DNA from: Saprospirales bacterium GYS_P2D
Lineage (GTDB): Bacteria; Bacteroidota; Bacteroidia; Chitinophagales; Saprospiraceae
Assembly (NCBI GenBank): GCA_009833045.1
Contig: WUUP01000009.1
Location: 62,001-126,000, forward strand
Direction: 5' to 3'
Length of the DNA stretch: 64,000 nt
Shown here in pieces: positions 14,197-25,177 of this stretch. Every line of letters starts with the position of its first letter. The first letter of the stretch is position 1. Under the pieces are notes generated by a model that was given only the letters and a program-made list of their open reading frames with translations, was not told where the DNA came from and did no database searches. The position numbers were made by a program, and so were the translations under genes.

Positions 14197-15249
14197 TTAC
14201 AAAGACTCTACACGAGTGATCCAGCCGTATGGATCAGCGACAGATCCTGTCCGCATGCCGTCAATTGTAGCCTTGAGCATAGGGGCTATTTTATAAGTAG
14301 ACGGATCTATATTGATGATAGTATCACCTGCAGCGATTTTATTCACTGTCGATATGACAGCAGCAGTCCCTGTACCAAATACCTCTTGGAGAGTACCTGA
14401 CTCATAGGCATCGACCACAAAATCTAATGACAGTTTTTCTGCAATCACTTTATAACCCTTATCCTCTAAGAGTTGTATCATACTTTTTCGTGTGATACCA
14501 TGTAGGATGGCACCATTGAGACCTGGGGTATAAACCTTGCCATCGATCACAAAGAAAATGTTCATGGTGCCTACCTCCTGGATATATTTAAACTCATACG
14601 GATCCATCCACATCACCTGATCATATCCCGCTTCTTTAGCTTTCATCGCTGGATATAGTGAGGCCGCATAGTTACCACAGGTTTTAGCTTCGCCGACACC
14701 TCCTGGAGTGGCTCGTACATATTTATCTTCCGCTCTGAGGCTGACAGGCTTTGAGTAGTAAGGGCCTACCGGACAGGTAAAAATGACAAACTTATACTCT
14801 TCTGAAGGTCTCACACCGACGAACTCCTCAGTAGCGAACATGAATGGACGAATATACAGAGCGCTACCCTCTTGAGGTGGTATCCATGCACTCTCCAGTC
14901 CTACGATAGCGGAGATCGCCTCGACAAACATGTCTACCGGTATCGTCGGCATACACATACGCTCCGCAGATGCATTGATCCGGTGAGCATGCTCCTCTAC
15001 TCTGAATAGTAAAGGCGTACCGTCGTGATGCTTTGATGCCTTCATCCCTTCAAATATGGACTGGCCATAGTGCAAGGCCAGATTGGCAGGGTGAATACTA
15101 AAGTTTTGTAGCGGCATTATTTCTCCTTCTTCCCATTTTCCATTACGGTAGTCAGCTACATACATATGATCTGTGCATATCTGACCAAATGGGAGATTAT
15201 TGAAGTCAATAGTGCTGACTCTTGAGGTTTCGACGGTAGTTATTTTCAT
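14197..15249 (-). CDS. ilvE: Branched-chain amino acid aminotransferase
   Basis: A PLP-dependent transaminase for Leu, Ile and Val, cytoplasmic, 350 residues from the ATG at 15249. The class IV/BCAT-II signature is clear: GGVGEAKTCGNYAASL contains the PLP lysine, followed by YIQEVGTMNIFFV and EVFGTGTAAVIS. The open frame extends to 15303, but a TACTTTTG promoter box lies inside that extension (15278-15285) and conserved sequence begins after 15249, so the shorter start is preferred. It is monocistronic by spacing. Confidence 0.95.
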   Translation of the reverse strand: MKITTVETSRVSTIDFNNLPFGQICTDHMYVADYRNGKWEEGEIMPLQNFSIHPANLALHYGQSIFEGMKASKHHDGTPLLFRVEEHAHRINASAERMCMPTIPVDMFVEAISAIVGLESAWIPPQEGSALYIRPFMFATEEFVGVRPSEEYKFVIFTCPVGPYYSKPVSLRAEDKYVRATPGGVGEAKTCGNYAASLYPAMKAKEAGYDQVMWMDPYEFKYIQEVGTMNIFFVIDGKVYTPGLNGAILHGITRKSMIQLLEDKGYKVIAEKLSLDFVVDAYESGTLQEVFGTGTAAVISTVNKIAAGDTIINIDPSTYKIAPMLKATIDGMRTGSVADPYGWITRVESL

Positions 15250-15277
15250 AGGACAAGATTTGTATAAAATGCTACTG

Positions 15278-15285
15278 CAAAAGTA
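15278..15285 (-). promoter_or_regulatory. Probable ilvE -7 promoter box
   Basis: The minus strand reads TACTTTTG, a full TAnnTTTG match about 30 nt upstream of the chosen ilvE ATG. A TTTG lies 15 nt further upstream, slightly too close for an ideal -33 element. Confidence 0.5.
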
Positions 15286-15427
15286 GCTAAATATTGATCT
15301 CAAATATCATAAGGAAAAGCTGTAAAATCAAATAATTGAGCAGAAATTCAATTTTATTGGTCACTTTCTCAATTAATAAAATTACAGATCAACTTTGCCC
15401 TTATTCAGAAGTCCATATCTTGGCTCT

Positions 15428-15877
15428 ATGATTGCAGATGGATTTTACGATTTTCGGCGTTATGATCTTATTGAGGATCAGTGTGATCGCAGCTTTTATC
15501 CTGATCTAAGAGAGCAGTCAGTATTAGTCCTCTGCAAGTCAGATGACCTCTCGGGCCCTAACAAAGAGCTACTCACTAAAATCCTCGCTGCTATCGGCCA
15601 AAACTTTGACAATACACAGATCGTCGGTGTCAGGCCCGATCAAAAAATCAATGTCACAGAGATACTCAATATCGTCAAACCCAGTACCCTTCTGAGCTTT
15701 CATATCAATCTCAATACACATGGTCTCAAGCTGGAGCAAAAGCTCTATCGTATAATTGGGCTGATGGATACATCTATCATCATATCAGAGGCGCTTACCA
15801 TCTTGCAAGACAAGATCGAATCCAAGAAAAGGCTGTGGAATGAACTACAGACACAGTTTAACATAAATAAGAAATAG
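15428..15877 (+). CDS. Small protein upstream of rdgB, possibly DNA polymerase III psi-like
   Basis: A 149-residue soluble protein from the ATG at 15428 (a TTG at 15395 would add 11). The pattern VLVLCKSDDLSGPNKELLTKIL, then a C-terminal helix SKKRLWNELQTQF, recalls the HolD/psi subunit layout (VANDLP...LLxxVLxAL ... xLWxxI). The similarity is weak and judged by eye only. Its stop codon TAG shares the G with the GTG start of rdgB, so the two genes are translationally coupled. Function otherwise unknown. Confidence 0.7.
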   Translation: MIADGFYDFRRYDLIEDQCDRSFYPDLREQSVLVLCKSDDLSGPNKELLTKILAAIGQNFDNTQIVGVRPDQKINVTEILNIVKPSTLLSFHINLNTHGLKLEQKLYRIIGLMDTSIIISEALTILQDKIESKKRLWNELQTQFNINKK

Positions 15878-16464
15878 TGAAATTCATATTTGCTACCCAA
15901 AACCAGAACAAAGTAAAAGAGGTCTCCAAAATCTTAGACAATAAGGAAGCGATCTTAATCTCCTTAGCGGAAATAGGCTATACAGATGATATTGCAGAGA
16001 CAGGGACCACCCTCAATGAAAATGCTTGGATCAAGGCGGATACTATACATACTACCCTTGGCGGGAATGTAATCGCAGAAGATACAGGACTGGAGGTCAC
16101 GGCTATCGATATGGCGCCTGGAGTATATAGCGCTCGCTATGCAGGCCCACAAAAAAATGATCAAGACAACATCAATAAGCTACTCGATACCCTGAAAGAC
16201 AAGGAGGATAGATCTGCCAGATTCAGGACAGTAGTCGCTGTATGGCTTGATGGTGAGCGACATACATTTGAGGGTATAGTGAATGGAACGATCGCACATG
16301 AGCGCATGGGCACCGGTGGCTTTGGATATGATCCAGTATTTATCCCAGAAGGACATGATCAGTCTTTTGGCATCCTGAGCGCTAAGATAAAGAATAGTAT
16401 CAGTCACAGAGGCAGAGCATTCACTGCCGTAAAAGAATTCTTAGCTAAAATCAGCGAATCGTAA
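15877..16464 (+). CDS. rdgB: Non-canonical purine NTP pyrophosphatase RdgB/HAM1 (GTG start)
   Basis: Hydrolyses XTP, ITP and dITP to monophosphates and so keeps deaminated purines out of DNA and RNA; cytoplasmic. 195 residues. The substrate motif FATQNQNKVKE is at residues 4-14, AEDTGLEV and GVYSARYAG follow, and GFGYDPVF plus SHRGRAF complete the HAM1 signature. The GTG at 15877 is fixed by the conserved motif only four residues later. The last 14 bp overlap the convergent TonB-receptor gene. Confidence 0.95.
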   Translation: MKFIFATQNQNKVKEVSKILDNKEAILISLAEIGYTDDIAETGTTLNENAWIKADTIHTTLGGNVIAEDTGLEVTAIDMAPGVYSARYAGPQKNDQDNINKLLDTLKDKEDRSARFRTVVAVWLDGERHTFEGIVNGTIAHERMGTGGFGYDPVFIPEGHDQSFGILSAKIKNSISHRGRAFTAVKEFLAKISES

Positions 16465-18511
16465 ATCTCGCTCCTGCATATACTTGAGCAGTAGGTCCCG
16501 CTTCGTAAAACCTACTACCAAAGGCATTGATCCGGATGTTACTGTAGTAGTCCGTACCGAGCAGATTATTGACCCCGATGACAGGATGTATGTCTATGCG
16601 CTTAGTCTCGATGGTATAGCTCGCACTTAGATTGATGAGATGCACCGGCTCTATCTCTACGGCATTGCGATCATTTGCGTATATACGCCCCGTATAGAGA
16701 CTCTGGATTGAGATCATAGCATCATCCACGGGACTGACTTTCAGCGAGTTAGTTAATCTGTGAATTGGTATTCCTGGAAGCTTATTACCCGCCAAATCCG
16801 TACCACTTAATACATAGTCATCGTAGCTAAAATCAGAAAAACTATAGCTACTTGCCCAAGTCACGTAATTTCCTACAGTCATATCATTATCTATCTCAAC
16901 ACCCCAGCGCTCTGTGGAGCCTGCATTGCGAAAGAAATCACGACCAGGAAAAGCTTCTAATTCATAGGGAATAATCTCGTCTTCTGTCTTTATCCTAAAT
17001 GCCGCAATAGACACCGCTCCAAATCCATATGACTGACGGAAACCCAACTCCAATGATAGAGCCTTTTGTGGGGCCAACTCCTCATTAAAGCCCTCAGTAC
17101 CGCTTGGGTCTGCAGATAGCTCACTTAAAGTAGGGGTTTCAAAGCTCGTAGCTAACTGAAAATAGATTGAAGACTTATCACTCAGCTGCCTTAGCACACC
17201 GATATTGGGATTTAGTTGGTGATATTCGAGTTGATCACTACCATCACCATTGGTCAGTATGTGATCCTCCGCTTCGAGTCTATTATCATCATATCGTAGT
17301 CCAATATCCAACGACCATTTTTGCCAATCTATATGATCATAGAGATAGACACCCACCGCATTAAATCTCTCTTGCTGATCAAAGACTAATCCTCCGATAC
17401 TCCCTTGTAGATTATCATATCGCTCTCGATCGTCATATTGCCATCCGATATCATAGCCGATTTGGAGATTATTGACCGCTTGGCCATATATTTTTTGATA
17501 GGACAGGTTGATACCCGCTCCTCCGTAGGATCTATAGAGGTCGATGTATCCACTATTTTCAAATGGCAAATAGCCCTTGAAATCTCTAATACTGAAAAAC
17601 CCATAAGAGCTGAGTGTCCAGTCGTTAAATAGTTTTTTAGTATATCTCCCTGATATTTTGAACTGCTCAATAGACTCACCTGCATCGTAAAAGAGATTAG
17701 CATCTCTCGCAGTAGTCGGCATTGTGGTAGCTTGTTCGAGATTAACACCTCCAGGATCATTTGCCTCCGGACTATTGGTATAGTTGACTAATATATCAAA
17801 CTCTCCATCCTCCACATAGCGTAGCCATCGTGCGGACCAATTAGTCTGCTTTGCCTCAGAGTGCTCTCTATATCCTTCAAAAGTTTGATGATTAGCTCTG
17901 AGGAGGATACGATTTTGACCTTCTTTGAGTCCCGCCGAAACATCCACTTTATTCATGCCAAATGAACCCATCTGAAAGTTAGCAGTTGCGAAAGTCTCAT
18001 CGAAATCTTTCATCGTATTGATCGCTAAAACTCCACCTGAAGCATTGCCATATAGACTGGACGCTGCCCCTCGCAAGGACTCCACTCGAGTGATAGCCGA
18101 TATATCGATATTGTCTACTTGACCTTGACCATCCGGTGTAGTCTCGGGTATCCCATCCACTATGAGCTTGACACCTCTGATACCAAAAGCAGATCTGGCA
18201 CCAAAGCCTCTAATGCTCAATCGCATATCCTGGGCATAGTTGTACCCATTAGTCGCAAAGACTCCGGGTATTTCTTCGAGATATTGATTGATATTGACAG
18301 GATTCAGATCATTCGTCAAAGGATCATAGCTATCTACGTGCACAGATCTCGGCGTACGTGATAGTTCTTGACCTATCCGTGTGGACTTGATGAGCACTTT
18401 GGAGAGCGTATCCCGAGTGACTTCTGATATCTGTGTATGAGCCGTATAGCCCAAAAAAAAGCAGAACCCTAAGAGCCCTGCTTTTATAAGTTTTTTACTT
18501 TCTAAGTTCAT
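16451..18511 (-). CDS. TonB-dependent outer-membrane receptor
   Basis: A 686-residue outer-membrane beta-barrel. After a signal peptide the plug domain carries RTPRSVHVDSYDP, IRGFGARSAFGIRGVKLIVD and the NASGGVLAINT segment. The barrel ends in VYAGARFTIR with the usual terminal aromatic pattern. It lacks the N-terminal carboxypeptidase-regulatory domain and the SusD partner of glycan-type receptors, so a metal-chelate (FecA-like siderophore or dicitrate) substrate is more likely. I chose the ATG at 18511; it overlaps the end of the upstream cytochrome gene by 17 bp, while the alternative at 18547 would overlap by 53. Confidence 0.88.
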   Translation of the reverse strand: MNLESKKLIKAGLLGFCFFLGYTAHTQISEVTRDTLSKVLIKSTRIGQELSRTPRSVHVDSYDPLTNDLNPVNINQYLEEIPGVFATNGYNYAQDMRLSIRGFGARSAFGIRGVKLIVDGIPETTPDGQGQVDNIDISAITRVESLRGAASSLYGNASGGVLAINTMKDFDETFATANFQMGSFGMNKVDVSAGLKEGQNRILLRANHQTFEGYREHSEAKQTNWSARWLRYVEDGEFDILVNYTNSPEANDPGGVNLEQATTMPTTARDANLFYDAGESIEQFKISGRYTKKLFNDWTLSSYGFFSIRDFKGYLPFENSGYIDLYRSYGGAGINLSYQKIYGQAVNNLQIGYDIGWQYDDRERYDNLQGSIGGLVFDQQERFNAVGVYLYDHIDWQKWSLDIGLRYDDNRLEAEDHILTNGDGSDQLEYHQLNPNIGVLRQLSDKSSIYFQLATSFETPTLSELSADPSGTEGFNEELAPQKALSLELGFRQSYGFGAVSIAAFRIKTEDEIIPYELEAFPGRDFFRNAGSTERWGVEIDNDMTVGNYVTWASSYSFSDFSYDDYVLSGTDLAGNKLPGIPIHRLTNSLKVSPVDDAMISIQSLYTGRIYANDRNAVEIEPVHLINLSASYTIETKRIDIHPVIGVNNLLGTDYYSNIRINAFGSRFYEAGPTAQVYAGARFTIR

Positions 18512-18872
18512 CGAGATACTCTGCGACCGATTGTATTTGGTCTTCACTTAATATGTCTTTGTATGGTGTCATGAGACCTTTACCATTAGTGATTTGATTG
18601 ATACGCTCTTCGAGTGTGATGGTGGAGGCAGAGAGGTCCTTAGCGCCACTCACTCCGAGCTTACCATCTGCTCCATGACAGATTACACAATACTGCTTAT
18701 AGATGAGTCTACCCTTACGATTAGACTTAGCAGCCGTCTCAGTAGCTTCCTTTTTTACTTCTTCTTTAGCTGGTGTATTACTACTTGCAGAAGGCTCTGC
18801 AGGCTTCTCACCTCCACATGCGATCAACGTCATGAGGCCCAGCGCACTAATTATAATGACAAATTTTTTCAT
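18495..18872 (-). CDS. Cytochrome c lipoprotein, single heme
   Basis: A 125-residue protein from the ATG at 18872. The lipoprotein signal peptide (LMTLIACGG) is followed by an Ala/Ser/Pro/Lys-rich linker and a class I cytochrome c domain with CVICH as the heme site and TPYKDILSE supplying the distal Met region (GLMTPY). It is expected in the periplasm, lipid-anchored. Its 3' end overlaps the TonB-receptor start by 17 bp, so the two are probably co-expressed. That hints at redox chemistry connected to uptake of the receptor's substrate; this link is inference. Confidence 0.88.
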   Translation of the reverse strand: MKKFVIIISALGLMTLIACGGEKPAEPSASSNTPAKEEVKKEATETAAKSNRKGRLIYKQYCVICHGADGKLGVSGAKDLSASTITLEERINQITNGKGLMTPYKDILSEDQIQSVAEYLDELRK

Positions 18873-18961
18873 ACTATATACTTTATTCATGTAAAAACGA
18901 ATCAGCAAAGTAATAATCTCAAATCATATTCTCCCCTCCGCCGATACGTCTTTTTCTGATT

Positions 18962-19897
18962 TTATATGATTCCTTGCTCTACGAGATAGCGCTCGGCATC
19001 GAGTGCGGCCATACAGCCTGTACCAGCAGCAGTGACTGCCTGTCGATATACATTATCTGCGGCGTCACCAGAGGCGAATACTCCTGGACGATTAGTGTAG
19101 CTCGTACCAGCCTTGACTGTCAGATATCCTGTCTGATCCATATCTATCCACCCTTTAAAGATGTCAGTATTGGGCTTATGTCCAATCGCTACGAAAAAAC
19201 CAGATACATCGATATCTTTAATCTCTGAGGTGATTCTATTTTTCACTTTCACTCCCGTGACCTCTGTATCACCTAATACTTCTACTGTCTCCGTATTCCA
19301 ATGTATCTGAATATTTGGAGTATCAATCACACGCTGCTGCATAATCTTCGAAGCACGCATCTCATCACGACGTACGAGCATATGCACAGTTGGGCAGAGT
19401 TTTGACAGATAGGTCGCCTCTTCTGCAGCAGTATCACCGCCTCCGACTAATGCTACATCTTTACCTCTGAAGAAAAAGCCATCACATACTGCACAAGCTG
19501 AGACACCCTGATTCATGAGACGTTGCTCTGACTCGAGACCCAGCCACTTTGCACTTGCCCCTGTAGAGATGATGACAGTATGAGCTTTCACCTCTTCGCC
19601 TGACTCCGTCCATATCCTATGCACAGGACCAGTAAAATCGACTTTACCTATCATCTCATACTTGACCTCAGTACCAAATCTCTCTGCCTGCTTTCTGAAC
19701 TCATCCATCATCTGAGGACCTCCTATGCCATCTGGATATCCAGGATAGTTTTCGACATCTGTGGTGATCATGAGCTGACCTCCCGGCTCTGGTCCGGTAT
19801 ACACTACTGGCTTCATTCCCGCACGAGCTGCATATATAGCTGCTGTATATCCCGCAGGTCCAGATCCGATTATTACGCAGTTTAATACTTCTGCCAT
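18962..19897 (-). CDS. trxB: Thioredoxin reductase
   Basis: A 311-residue FAD/NADPH enzyme that reduces thioredoxin in the cytoplasm. The FAD-binding GSGPAGYTAAIYAARAG is at about 12-28, the redox disulfide CAVCDG at about 136-141, the NADPH site GGGDTAAEEA at about 151-160, and the C-terminal FAD motif FASGDAADNVYRQAVTAAG near 280. Length is typical. Monocistronic, with its own promoter box at 19970-19977. Confidence 0.97.
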   Translation of the reverse strand: MAEVLNCVIIGSGPAGYTAAIYAARAGMKPVVYTGPEPGGQLMITTDVENYPGYPDGIGGPQMMDEFRKQAERFGTEVKYEMIGKVDFTGPVHRIWTESGEEVKAHTVIISTGASAKWLGLESEQRLMNQGVSACAVCDGFFFRGKDVALVGGGDTAAEEATYLSKLCPTVHMLVRRDEMRASKIMQQRVIDTPNIQIHWNTETVEVLGDTEVTGVKVKNRITSEIKDIDVSGFFVAIGHKPNTDIFKGWIDMDQTGYLTVKAGTSYTNRPGVFASGDAADNVYRQAVTAAGTGCMAALDAERYLVEQGII

Positions 19898-19969
19898 ATT
19901 ATTCTTTTGATCTATGATTAGTTATTTTCAATATTATATGTCTATAACACGTATGATTAAACGAGGTTG

Positions 19970-19977
19970 CAAAAGTA
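19970..19977 (-). promoter_or_regulatory. Probable trxB -7 promoter box
   Basis: The minus strand reads TACTTTTG, a TAnnTTTG match about 73 nt upstream of trxB. The nearest TTTG lies 25 nt further upstream, beyond the ideal spacing. Confidence 0.45.
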
Positions 19978-20071
19978 ATTTTTTAATACCGCTTCACCTA
20001 CCCAAACTGTCCGTATCACGGCAGTTTTATACATAGAGAATAAAATAATATAAATTTTTATGGAATTGATA

Positions 20072-20102
20072 TTTGTCAATTTCATGTATTGCCCTATATT
20101 TG
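20072..20102 (+). promoter_or_regulatory. Consensus Bacteroidota promoter of the small RNA
   Basis: TTTG at 20072-20075, a 19-nt spacer and TATATTTG at 20095-20102 match both the -33 and -7 consensus and the preferred spacing. Transcription should begin near 20108. This is the best promoter match in the window. Confidence 0.8.
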
Positions 20103-20107
20103 TACTC

Positions 20108-20176
20108 AGACGGCGCCCTGCCGTCTCTCATTCATACCCTTGTAACGTTTGGCCCATCGAAGGATGGGCTTTTTTT
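20108..20176 (+). ncRNA. Candidate small RNA, about 68 nt
   Basis: It starts just after a consensus promoter and ends in an intrinsic terminator. Hairpin 1 (20108-20126) has a perfect 7-bp stem AGACGGC/GCCGTCT with loop GCCCT. A single-stranded linker of 25 nt (20127-20151) follows. Hairpin 2 (20152-20169) is the terminator stem. No start codon with a sensible peptide is present. It lies between divergent trxB and the secreted protein at 20292. It could be a free regulatory RNA, or the attenuated leader of the 20292 gene, whose ATG is 116 nt beyond the terminator. No known RNA family was recognised. Confidence 0.6.
20152..20176 (+). terminator. Intrinsic terminator of the small RNA
   Basis: A perfect 7-bp stem GCCCATC/GATGGGC with a GAAG tetraloop is followed directly by seven T. 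Confidence 0.85.
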
Positions 20177-20291
20177 ATGCCCATACTTTCCAGCCCCAGT
20201 AAATACCCTTATAGGTAGTCCAACAGACCTTATTATATTGGCTATTCAAGTCCAGTTGTCATATTTGATGCTTTTGGGTAACTTTATAAGC

Positions 20292-22274
20292 ATGAAAAAT
20301 TCTGTCACCATCCTTATGCTATTCCTAACCATAGGAATATGCGACATACACCTTGCCTTTGGGCAGTCATGGACGCATATGGACGTGGCCCCAGGCATCA
20401 AGCCTACCTTAGCACTCGACACAGCAGATCAAGTACACATAGCATTTGTCAACGAAGCTAACTCTGGATGGCTCAAGCATGCTACTCGAGCTGACTCTTC
20501 TTGGGACATCTCGACGCCCGCCGAAGGATACTTCTATGGTCCTATAGATATAGCTATCAACCAAAACAATCATCTATATATCGCCTATCACGATCATAAT
20601 ACTATGGGTGGCAATGAGGCTATCGTCAGCTACATTGATGGCGCATGGACTAATACCGTCATTGATGACAATGGGCACGATGGCTGGGACAATAGTATTG
20701 CATTTGATAGCCAAGGCGTACCGCATACAGCAAGTATCGATCCAAATGGTGGAGGCACTGAATATGCTACGATCATAGATGGCAACTGGGTCAAGCAAAG
20801 CCTTGGCACACCGAGCACCTTTTATCAATACGCTACAGATATCGTCATAGGTTCTGATGATCAACCACACATTTGCTTTTATTATGATGACGACAATACA
20901 CTATTCTATATGAAGAGAGACTCCATTGGCTGGCAAAGTGGAAAAGTGGATGAAGCTGGTGGTTTATTTCCATCTATGATCCTCGACGATCAAGACTTAC
21001 CTCACATCGCCTACTTCACAGAAGGCGATGAAGAGGATACTGGAGAAGTAAAATATGCTTTTTTTAACGGATCAGAATGGAACATCTCTACTGTAGCCAA
21101 TCTCTCTAATGCCCCACTGGGTCGTACAGGGAGTCGCCGTATTACTTCGCTTCAGCGAGATCATCAGGGACAGTTGCATATGACTTATTGCGATAGAGAT
21201 GTCTTAGTATTTGCTACGCTGACCGGAGATGGCTCATGGCTACAGGATACTATCTTAGATGCCAAGAGTAATGCTATGACACTCGGAGCACAGAGTTCTT
21301 TGGAGTTTGATAGAGAGGGTACCCCACATGTCACTTACTATCAGGTCACTTCTACCTCTCCCTTGTCGGGAATGATCAGATATACCTATCGCTCAGAACT
21401 GGATGACAAGGACAATGATGGATATAATGAGGCTGTAGACTGCAATGATCTGGACGCCAGTATCAATCCTGGAGCAGAAGAAATACCCAACAACGGAATC
21501 GATGAAAACTGTGATGGTGAGGTTTTATTTATTGATGCAGATATGGATGGCTTTCATGAAGGCATAGATTGTGATGATTCCGACCCTGACATCAATCCAA
21601 TGGCTGAAGAAATAGCGAATAATGATATAGATGAAAACTGCGATGGAGATACACTCTACATAGATCTCGACATGGATGGATATCATGGTGGCATCGACTG
21701 CGATGATAATAATCCAAATATCAATCCTGGTGCAGAAGAAATAGAAGGCAATAGCATCGATGAAAACTGTGATGGCGACATCATAGGCGATCCGGCTATC
21801 ATAGTATCAGGTACTATTACAAATAGAGGAGGATTTCCTATCTCAGGTGTGACCGTCCTATTAAGCCAAGACAGTAGTGTCTCTATGATCACTGATAGTA
21901 CAGGTACATTCAGTTTTGGTCCGCTCGATGTGGATGATGATGCGGTACTGACCTTATTCAAAAATACAAATGCTGCCAATGGTGTATCATCAATAGATCT
22001 CATAGCAGTCACCAATCATATCCTCGCTAAAGTGCCCATCACTGATGACATACTCCTCCAAGCAGCAGACGTCACTGGGGACAATCGTATCTCATCCATC
22101 GATCTGGTCGAAATGACTAATGTCATACTCGAAAAATGGGATGGATTCAACAATAAAGACTCGTGGGAATTTATCCCGAACGCTATAAATCTAAACAGTA
22201 CCGAAAACCAAACTCTCAGCATCACTGCCTACAAAGTGGGAGACCTCAATGGCAATGCTGACCCAAATCGATAA
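20292..22274 (+). CDS. Secreted beta-propeller-like protein with three MopE-type repeats and dockerin-like end
   Basis: 660 residues from the ATG at 20292, which opens a good signal peptide ([24 protein letters not shown]). The frame is open back to 20073, but that part spans the small-RNA locus. Residues of about 25-370 repeat a pattern of bladed beta sheets ([46 protein letters not shown]) like sialidase/propeller folds. Three MopE-like metal-binding repeats follow at about 375-495 (DCDDxDPxINPxAEEI, IDENCDG), then a carboxypeptidase-regulatory-like Ig module. Two dockerin-like loops ([30 protein letters not shown]) and GDLNGNADP end the protein. A paralogous gene follows after 3 nt. Binding role unknown. 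Confidence 0.8.
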
Positions 22275-22277
22275 ATC

Positions 22278-23588
22278 ATGAGTACTCAAAAAATAGTCTG
22301 GGGGGCCATCATAGCTGCCATCATCCTCCTGTCATTCAGCAGTGCACCTCCTATCGGACGGACAGGCGCCCCAGATCAAGGCTCATGCGCAGATAGCGGG
22401 TGTCACGAGATGAGTGATACTGATATCAATGGAGAGATAACCCTGCTCGGACTACCAGAGAGCTATCAGACAGATAGTATTTATAGCTTGATTCTCCAGC
22501 TTAGCGCTACTGCAGGTTCTCCTCGTAGTGCGGGATTTCAGATGACAGCACTTCGACCTAACAATAACGGCATCGGCACATTCAGAAATGCTGGTGAGCA
22601 GGTCACGATCGTATCGACCAGCAGAGAGCGAGCATTTGCTCAGCATAGTCCTGTAAAAGATTTTGATGGAGAGAGCTCGCTAAGCTACGAAGTAGAATGG
22701 GTAGCTCCCGATAGTAGTGAGATAGACTCGGTGATCTTTTATATAGCGACTAATTTTGTCAATGGGGATGGTGGCCGAAACGGAGACAAGGTCATCCTAC
22801 ATCAAGTAGTAACCATACCTGATACGAGCAGCACTGCTGTAGACATGGACAATGATGGCTACGATAGCACGGTAGACTGTGATGATACAGATCCTACTAT
22901 TAATCCTGATGCCACCGAAATCGCAAACAACAACATCGATGAAAACTGCGACGGCATAGCCGAAATGATAGATATGGACAATGATGGCTGGAACTCTGAT
23001 CTCGACTGTGACGATACAGATCCCACAATCAATCCCAATGCAATGGAAATATTGGACAATGATATCGACGAAAACTGTGATGGTCGGATCGAGCAGTCTC
23101 CTGACTCTACCCTATCTATCGCTGGGCTCATAGCCAATGCTGGCGGTGTAGGCATTCAAAATGTTGACATCATTTTACTACCTTCAGGTGATACTATAAA
23201 ATCTGACGCCTTTGGACTCTTTGACATCACTGACATAGATACTGAAGTCACAGAGATACAATTCAGCAAAAGAAACAATCCAGGTAACGGAGTATCAAGT
23301 CTCGATCTCATCAATATGACCAATCATATACTTGGGAGAAATATCATCGATGATCAAGATGTACTGCTGGCGGCTGATGTCAATCAAGATAGTCGCATAT
23401 CGTCTCAAGATATCGTGATCAGTACTAATGTCATTTTGGGTCGTAATGAAGATTTCGCAGGTATACCTTCTTGGATATTTGCCCCAGAGAGCATCTCTCT
23501 GAGTGATACTACCCTCAATCTGCAAAACATCCGCATCAAAGGTTTAAAAATCGGAGATCTCACAGGAGATGCTGACCCTAAGCAGTAG
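22278..23588 (+). CDS. Choice-of-anchor V-like exported protein with two MopE-type repeats and dockerin-like end
   Basis: 436 residues. An N-terminal membrane/signal segment is followed by PIGRTGAPDQGSCADSGCH, the opening of the choice-of-anchor V domain, here with a CX4CH rather than the usual CXXCH spacing (Cys37, Cys42, His43). That domain runs to about 175. Two MopE-like repeats (about 187-274), an Ig-like regulatory module and dockerin-like loops (SSLDLINMTNHILGR, SSQDIVISTNVILGR) follow. The end, KIGDLTGDADP, mirrors the preceding protein, so the pair share a duplicated C-terminal half. They are co-transcribed, with 3 nt between genes. A 7-bp hairpin overlaps the stop (23586-23611). Confidence 0.78.
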   Translation: MSTQKIVWGAIIAAIILLSFSSAPPIGRTGAPDQGSCADSGCHEMSDTDINGEITLLGLPESYQTDSIYSLILQLSATAGSPRSAGFQMTALRPNNNGIGTFRNAGEQVTIVSTSRERAFAQHSPVKDFDGESSLSYEVEWVAPDSSEIDSVIFYIATNFVNGDGGRNGDKVILHQVVTIPDTSSTAVDMDNDGYDSTVDCDDTDPTINPDATEIANNNIDENCDGIAEMIDMDNDGWNSDLDCDDTDPTINPNAMEILDNDIDENCDGRIEQSPDSTLSIAGLIANAGGVGIQNVDIILLPSGDTIKSDAFGLFDITDIDTEVTEIQFSKRNNPGNGVSSLDLINMTNHILGRNIIDDQDVLLAADVNQDSRISSQDIVISTNVILGRNEDFAGIPSWIFAPESISLSDTTLNLQNIRIKGLKIGDLTGDADPKQ

Positions 23589-23631
23589 GTGAAAGCAAAT
23601 CCAATCACCTAATAGCAAAGCGAATAAGATC

Positions 23632-24354
23632 TTACGCCAGATTATGGAAGACTTTCTGTACGTCTTCTTCTTCTTCCATCTTAGCGATGAGCTTGAGCAC
23701 CTCTTCTTCTGCCTCGCCAGTGACCTCTACCATATTCATGGGTATCCACTCGAGTTCTGATGATTTCACTTCGAGTCCTTTCTCCTCGAGAGCGCTCTGC
23801 ATCGTACCAAACTCTGAGAATGGCACTCGGATGACTATTCGTTCATTGCCATCGTCATCGGTACCTTCTCCCATCTCTTCCAGACCATAGTCGATCAGCT
23901 CCAGCTCCATCTCTTCAGGGTCGAGACCTTCAGGATCCAATTTGAATACTCCCATTTTATTAAATTGGAAAGAGACACTATTCTGAGTGCCGAGACTCCC
24001 ATTGCATTTATTGAATACGGCTCTGACTTTCGCAACGGTCCTAACAGGATTGTCCGTAGCCGTCTCAACGAGTATCGCCACTCCATGAGGAGCGTAGCCT
24101 TCATATAGAATCTCCTCATAGTCCGAGGTATCCTTTCCCATAGCACGCTTGATCGCTGCTTCGACTTTATCCTTAGGCATGTTGACACCTTTGGCATTCT
24201 GCATAGCACGACGGAGCGCAGGATTATTATCTGGATCAGGGCCACCAGCTTTGACAGCGATATTTATGTCCTTACCGATTCTCGAAAACTGTTTCGCCAT
24301 TCTGTCATAGCGAGCGAACATGCTGGCCTTTCTTACCTCAAATATTCTTCCCAT
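23632..24354 (-). CDS. yebC: YebC/PmpR family protein
   Basis: 240 residues, a full-length member: [27 protein letters not shown] at the N-terminus (the family's usual GHSKW start region is diverged), [43 protein letters not shown] and the [18 protein letters not shown] segment. Family members act as transcriptional regulators or, in some bacteria, relieve ribosome pausing at proline stretches; the role here is not resolved by sequence. Cytoplasmic. A TATTTTTG promoter box lies about 20 nt upstream. Confidence 0.93.
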
Positions 24355-24373
24355 GGATATTTAGATTTGGCTG

Positions 24374-24381
24374 CAAAAATA
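24374..24381 (-). promoter_or_regulatory. Probable yebC -7 promoter box
   Basis: The minus strand reads TATTTTTG (TAnnTTTG) between the exonuclease stop and the yebC ATG, suggesting yebC has its own promoter. Confidence 0.4.
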
Positions 24382-24412
24382 ATCGACTTTAGGCTTTTTA
24401 GAAATCTGGAGA

Positions 24413-25177
24413 TTATTCTTCTTTATCTAAGGGCGTCACATAGACTACTGACTCATCTGAGAAAGGGTCCGTCTCGATGAGTCTGAGGTATACTCGAGCT
24501 GTAGCTATCAGATCATACTCACAGTATGCCACGATCTCTGGGAGGCGTCCTTCCCAGTAAGCTTGATTAACATCTTTACCACTCATTTCCATCTTTGGAC
24601 TGGGCACCCCGAGGACATGGCAGAGCATATTCAGTGAGCTGTAGTGCTTATAGTCACCAAACTTCCACATATCCATAGTATCGAGTAGATGATGGACCTG
24701 CCATGGCTTAGTCCCTGCGATATTGAGCAGATTAGGTAGCTTGATCTTATTGATCACGTAGCGGCGAGCCAAGAATGGAATGTCAAACTCCTTAATATTG
24801 TGTCCACACAAAAAATGATAATAGCTATCATAATAATGGTCATACAGCAATGCAGAAAAACGAGTCAACACATCGACCTCATCGTCACCTGCTATCGACA
24901 TCACTCTGAACTGACCCTCTGGCCCATCTTTATCCAGGTACCCTACTGATATACAGATCACCTTAGCATACTCTGCATAGATCGCAGACTTATCTTGATA
25001 GTATTGAGCGACTTTTTCATCATCCATTTCTACTGATCGTTGCTCAAAATATCGTCGTGCACGAGTGTCCCAAAGCCTCTGAAATTCAACAGACATCTCC
25101 TCATAGCTCGACACCTGACTGGCGGTCTCAATATCTAAAAAGAGGATTCTTCTGAGTTTTTCTTTAGGAAATGTCAT
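24413..25177 (-). CDS. Predicted 3'-5' DEDD exonuclease (PolB-like exonuclease domain)
   Basis: 254 residues. Exo I motif LFLDIETA (about 13-20) supplies Asp and Glu, Exo II is CGHNIKEFDIPFLARRYV (about 124-141), and Exo III is YCEYDLIATARVYLRL near 220. This is the stand-alone exonuclease related to the B-family DNA polymerase proofreading domain (PF10108 type). It probably acts in nucleic acid repair or turnover in the cytoplasm; the substrate is unknown. It lies upstream of yebC on the same strand, 58 bp apart. Confidence 0.88.
   Translation of the reverse strand: MTFPKEKLRRILFLDIETASQVSSYEEMSVEFQRLWDTRARRYFEQRSVEMDDEKVAQYYQDKSAIYAEYAKVICISVGYLDKDGPEGQFRVMSIAGDDEVDVLTRFSALLYDHYYDSYYHFLCGHNIKEFDIPFLARRYVINKIKLPNLLNIAGTKPWQVHHLLDTMDMWKFGDYKHYSSLNMLCHVLGVPSPKMEMSGKDVNQAYWEGRLPEIVAYCEYDLIATARVYLRLIETDPFSDESVVYVTPLDKEE

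Follow-up and report, generated by a model that had tools for sequence, protein, structure and literature searches.

Paralogous small RNAs (sRNAs) are known in the Bacteroidota from FopS of Bacteroides thetaiotaomicron. According to the available text of PMC11697453, FopS comprises 14 paralogous sRNAs that share a 5' seed and fall by length into clusters at about 65 nt and about 70 nt; they bind susC-like mRNAs close to the start codon, thereby repressing them, and associate with the RRM-1 protein RbpB. The same text describes a second paralogous sRNA family, whose six members lie beside transposases or invertases. LhrC of Listeria (LhrC1-7) and other sibling sRNAs likewise occur in several copies per genome, as described in the accessible parts of PMC4132741, PMC4211561 and PMC11697453; LhrC belongs to another phylum and is set apart from the family reported here by description, no Rfam family having reached its threshold in our searches. 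Rfp18 of Flavobacterium psychrophilum is likewise a Bacteroidota sRNA conserved within one genus, but unlike the present family it is not described as multicopy in the available portion of PMC9723704; this likeness too is one of description. The literature we found on sRNAs of the phylum concerns Bacteroides and, once, Flavobacterium, and the titles and opening lines of abstracts retrieved for Saprospiraceae together with small RNA contained nothing on such RNAs.

The window analysed here is a 64,000-nt stretch of a Saprospiraceae contig. Its segment 20072-20176 appears, judging from sequence, to be one member of a new and well-conserved multicopy sRNA gene family, of a kind already known. For the promoter we used the consensus given in the accessible text of PMC7366714 and PMC9723704, the former of which reports that a -33 motif went undetected in Flavobacterium johnsoniae. 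A promoter of the Bacteroidota sigma-A type, TTTG-N19-TATATTTG, lies at 20072-20102 on the + strand and is the only such match in the window; its -33 TTTG (20072-20075) and -7 box TATATTTG (20095-20102) are separated by a 19-nt spacer, and the discriminator TACTC follows. The RNA start was set 5-6 nt past the -7 box, PMC9723704 placing the box at -12 to -5 in the part of the paper available. The predicted RNA thus runs on the + strand from 20107/20108 to the end of the T-tract at 20176, and with 69-70 nt it is close to, though slightly longer than, the approximately 68 nt of the initial annotation. It folds into a 5' hairpin, AGACGGC-GCCCT-GCCGTCT, with 7 bp and a 5-nt loop (20108-20126, +), an unpaired linker CUCAUUCAUACCCUUGUAACGUUU (20127-20150, +), and an intrinsic terminator with an 8-bp stem, a GAAG loop and T7 (20151-20176, +). 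The terminator is seen in the letters, in the fold and in a terminator scan, its hairpin GGCCCATC-GAAG-GATGGGCT spanning 20151-20170 and T7 20170-20176. Promoter, 7-bp hairpin and terminator agree letter by letter with what had been annotated, and the linker is present as described except that it measures 24 nt and not 25. RNAfold returned exactly two hairpins for the window copy (-26.2 kcal/mol, z = -2.0).

The locus had also been described as far more regular than expected by chance. The strict promoter pattern TTTG-N17..21-TATATTTG occurs once in the 64 kb, both strands included, against 0.07 expected from 30 first-order Markov simulations. The looser pattern TTTG-N17..21-TAnnTTTG was found twice against 0.6 expected, with up to 3 occurrences in one simulation. 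The terminator scan of 15000-25000 gave 6 against 5.7 expected, which is chance level, and the fold z-score is modest both here and across the family (-0.8 to -3.8). Single-sequence statistics alone are not decisive for an RNA gene at this position; it is recurrence and conservation that lift the locus above chance. The statement that it overlaps no credible gene has to be qualified, as a TTG-started frame (20073-22274) covers the RNA locus and runs on into the surface protein downstream. The loop of the first hairpin is 1 nt longer in a second species, however, which argues against a conserved reading frame. At the level of sequence, the window copy combines its own promoter and intrinsic terminator with the lack of a conserved reading frame, as expected of a trans-acting intergenic sRNA.

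Within the genus, we compared the own genome (G000, 99% complete) with two others, G002 (97%) and G001 (58%). The 18-nt motif TCATTCATACCCTTGTAA, which occupies 20128-20145 (+) within the linker, was found exactly at 11 loci, five each in G000 and G002 and one in G001, the loci beyond the nearer copies being reached by using the linker alone as query. Two scaffolds could be distinguished among them, sharing only the motif. Scaffold A, consisting of hairpin, motif as linker, and terminator, comprises the window copy, L041, L038, L035 and L036, and the full 24-nt linker is identical in all five. The 5' hairpin is complete in L041 and L038, and its left arm is missing in L035. Scaffold B comprises L045, L042, L037, L039, L046 and L044; here the motif supplies the 5' arm of a hairpin, CATTCA/TGAATG, along with a portion of its loop. 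The inner hairpin of L039 and L046 differs in sequence, and the folds of all scaffold B members other than L044 contain a terminator-like hairpin with a T-rich tail. L044 fits scaffold B poorly (E 0.04 with model R1, a different fold and a weak P1 stem); it is counted among the 11 loci and, because it was misaligned, was excluded from model R1. One further candidate, L040, was dropped from the family, having 3 mismatches to the motif and no matching structure by eye.

Four of the scaffold A copies, the window copy included, lie in the own genome. With five loci of the family there and a predicted length of 69-70 nt for the window copy, the genome has paralogous copies in the size range of FopS, about 65-70 nt. 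The three other own-genome matches cover 93, 81 and 60 nt: C23:269595-269687 (97%, with the -7 box), C7:19490-19570 (L038, 94%) and C5:50394-50453 (100%, lacking the left arm of hairpin 1). Past the matched parts, their flanks showed no similarity to the window or to one another. Their neighbours are a weak, below cut-off match to DUF6090 together with an alpha/beta-hydrolase gene, a resolvase gene, and a gene whose product carries the type IX secretion domain CHU_C. The copy next to the resolvase gene, L038, has no recognisable -7 box, is on a 31-kb contig and may be the cargo of a mobile element.

Promoter geometry was conserved at several of the family loci. The distance from the start of the -7 box to the motif is 33 nt for the scaffold A members L041, L036 and the window copy; for L045, L042 and L037, all of scaffold B, it is 21-23 nt. 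TTTG at N19 with a TAnnTTTG or TAnnTTTA box was observed for the window copy, L045, L042 and L037, and at N18 for L041, so that the spacing is kept at five loci. L036 has the -7 box and no TTTG upstream, and in L044 the box lies merely 13 nt ahead of the motif. A scan for the -7 box gave no match at L038 and L035 of scaffold A or at L039 and L046 of scaffold B.

Evidence of selective conservation comes from L036 in G002, which is syntenic with the window copy, having trxB on one side and the surface gene on the other. The RNA block (-20 to +50 relative to the motif) is 89% identical between the two species (z = 14), and the other blocks gave z of -0.2 to 2.4; the highest-scoring flanking block, -120 to -20, holds the promoter. 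An absence of conservation in close relatives, one half of what had been named beforehand as speaking against an RNA, is thus contradicted. These blocks were anchored on the motif without re-anchoring for length differences. From the first base of the motif to the surface-gene ATG the distance is 164 nt in the window copy and 99 nt in L036, so that the blocks past +95 set non-equivalent positions against each other; the same island of conservation was seen in one gapped alignment of the two loci. For the neighbours, identity is 83% for TrxB and 49% over 466 aligned residues of the first part of the surface protein. In L036 the stem of hairpin 1 is kept and its loop is changed as well as lengthened; the terminator loop is GAAA, and the two outer pairs of the stem are changed and still paired. 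Compensatory double changes, which had been suggested as a check, were absent from the 5' hairpin. The second scaffold, too, recurs in three genomes at one orthologous position, where it is flanked by alr and a patatin gene. Here the RNA is kept from its 5' tail to the terminator, of which the loop half varies. At this locus z lay between 13 and 17 for the RNA block and between -0.4 and 2.0 for the 100-nt blocks that precede position -20; the downstream blocks, which extend into the alr gene, scored 8.5 to 14.

Among the genomes searched, the family is restricted to this genus of Saprospiraceae. A blastn search of 40 genomes with a 131-nt query returned the RNA, beyond the own genome, in G002 only among the matches listed; a 27-nt match in G004 (E 2.8e-4) spans just the AT-rich upstream stretch and was set aside. 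Model R1, run under stricter filters on 60 genomes, gave 4 weak matches in the 57 relatives outside the genus (E 0.19-0.91), which by eye are not members, and three more weak matches within the three genus genomes (L102, L104 and L106; E 0.6-3.1). For the motif itself we scanned a family set of 398 genomes, drawn from a larger group and including the genus. In the 395 genomes outside the genus, 6 sites with at most one mismatch were found, equal to the 6 of the reversed control, and 5 of them lie inside open frames of more than 200 codons. The remaining one, L132 (G080:C144:62610-62627), is an intergenic single-mismatch copy in another genus of the family. In a collection of 84,980 species the exact motif was present in 10 records, 6 being contigs of the two sister genomes; the other 4 were judged unrelated by eye and left uncounted, as were two viral contigs likewise inspected by eye. 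The plasmids and phages searched gave no match. An Rfam search, one of the checks proposed with the initial annotation, produced no match at gathering score in the window, and for the 11 loci at E up to 5 it produced 11 matches, all below gathering. The best was sbrA (E 0.036, 28.9 bits against a gathering score of 45), and Ysr49 recurred on all five scaffold A loci with 24-27 bits against 95; these matches were taken as chance or as likeness between terminators. We found no published description of the family in literature that omits most subscription papers, and 15 letters of the motif, written as RNA, were absent from it.

If the RNA acts on mRNAs through the linker, complementary sites might be recognisable, and several searches for them yielded nothing convincing. 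With up to 2 mismatches, the complement of a 15-mer of the motif has 40 sites, of which 11 are the RNAs themselves and 29 are others, against 37 for the reversed control. One near-complement was common to two species among the 18 of these 29 sites that were inspected, and falls on the LQGC lipobox of a lipoprotein, which from its sequence looks like a metalloprotease. This site (L096, G000:C22:53139-53153; L094, G002:C41:42015-42029) is a weak candidate target. The two lipoproteins are 74% identical and have four runs of 5-6 identical codons, the site being one of these, and in a gene so conserved the sharing of the site is not significant; in the relative in G022, a genome without the RNA, the site is absent. 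A duplex scan of start regions with the seed 20128-20147 found 2 of 325 below -14 kcal/mol, a lower fraction than for 19 of 20 shuffled seeds. The 325 regions represent about 9% of the genome and rest on crude starts (the first ATG of frames of at least 130 aa), and the shuffles preserve base composition only. Inside genes the corresponding figure was 9 of 325, lower than for all 20 shuffled seeds, a scarcity of strong complements that perhaps reflects avoidance. Exact 11-mer complements occurred at 4 sites outside the RNA genes, against 6 for the control, in different genes and without an orthologous pair. The want of a convincing mRNA target leaves room for the motif to bind a protein. One RRM_1 protein each was found in G000 and G002 (77 bits), that is, in two of the three genus genomes, and none in G001, which is 58% complete. 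These proteins, L107 and L108 respectively, are glycine-rich with a single RRM and are possible partners of the RNA.

Taken together, we favour, with a probability of about 0.7, a free-standing gene for a trans-acting sRNA of about 69 nt, with its own sigma-A promoter, an exposed seed in the linker and a probable RRM partner, belonging to a multicopy family confined to the genus. The RNA would be transcribed from its own promoter, with the 5' hairpin covering the 5' end and the terminator hairpin making the 3' end. The linker would remain exposed and act as a seed that pairs with target mRNAs, probably, as in FopS, aided by an RNA-binding protein of the RRM type; its location in the exposed linker makes the motif the natural candidate for such a seed. 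That the locus encodes a regulatory small RNA, as was first proposed, is supported by the conserved promoter geometry and RNA body and by the paralogous copies. The other reading offered at that time, an attenuated leader in which the surface-protein mRNA would begin with this RNA, whose terminator would control read-through into 20292-23588, we consider improbable. At the window locus and the syntenic L036, the surface gene does lie downstream in the same orientation. A leader would have a same-strand gene downstream at every copy, and with minimum reading-frame lengths of 60 or 90 aa this is so at only 3 of the 11 loci (window, L036 and L039); at the other 8, including the three remaining scaffold A copies of the own genome, the next gene has the opposite orientation. 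The surface gene may, moreover, start from its own promoter, for in both species a promoter-like sequence precedes its ATG. In the window this is a separate TTG-N20-TAACTTTA (20256-20286, +), recognised by eye and ending 5 nt before the ATG at 20292, and in L036, likewise by eye, TTTG-N19-TACTTTTA sits 7 nt ahead of the ATG. On both grounds, the strand of the neighbours and the possible separate promoter, a free trans-acting sRNA is preferred. Within 20292-23588 itself lie two neighbouring genes, both encoding MopE-type metal-binding motifs together with dockerin-like domains, the second dockerin match being just below cut-off; with the promoter-like box so close to its ATG, the first gene may be almost leaderless.

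A somewhat more serious competitor, still unlikely in our view, is a role of the motif in protein binding or as a sponge, by which the RNA would titrate an RNA-binding protein (the RRM_1 protein, for instance) and not pair with mRNAs. The identity of the motif in two different scaffolds with no detectable targets would be explained in this way, and the RRM_1 gene is at hand in two of three genomes; yet in FopS, as far as the accessible text of PMC11697453 goes, the 5' part bound by RbpB also carries the pairing seed. The two roles may coexist, so that titration overlaps with the free sRNA and their odds need not sum to one. Slightly less probable than the leader is a MITE- or REP-like nature of the repeats, which would then be small dispersed pieces of DNA that do not function as RNA. 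Such an element would account for four copies so alike amid unrelated flanks, two of them without a recognisable promoter and one adjoining a resolvase gene on a 31-kb contig, but the copy ends differ, the promoter spacing is conserved, an island of conservation stands out at the syntenic locus, and the two scaffolds have the motif alone in common. A chance pairing of promoter and terminator would agree with the regional terminator count, and can be practically discounted in view of the conservation, at the syntenic locus among others, and the multiple copies. A further reading is conceivable, which we put forward as speculation a little better placed than titration. An 18-nt motif that stays exactly the same on two or more unrelated RNA scaffolds, themselves multiplying inside one genus, could be a transplantable module for seed pairing or protein recognition, one that would define a Saprospiraceae RNA regulon with its own binding partner.

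FopS is the closest known analogue of the family, with its size of about 65-70 nt, multiple copies, sigma-A promoters, a shared seed in the 5' part and diverging downstream parts, and RRM_1 proteins occur both in the FopS lineage and in this genus. The resemblance, drawn from the available text on FopS, rests on description and not on a comparison of letters, and Bacteroides is not represented among the 10 records that contain the exact motif. FopS has 14 copies, against 5 in each of the two near-complete genomes here, and unlike FopS the Saprospiraceae family has two different scaffolds and consists of predicted sRNAs known from sequence alone. The six-member family beside transposases or invertases may also be set next to L038, which adjoins a resolvase gene. 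The Saprospiraceae family, multicopy, invariant in its core across two scaffolds and accompanied by an RRM protein gene in its genome, would offer a second case for testing whether the combination of paralogous sRNAs and an RRM protein is a regulatory arrangement general to the phylum.
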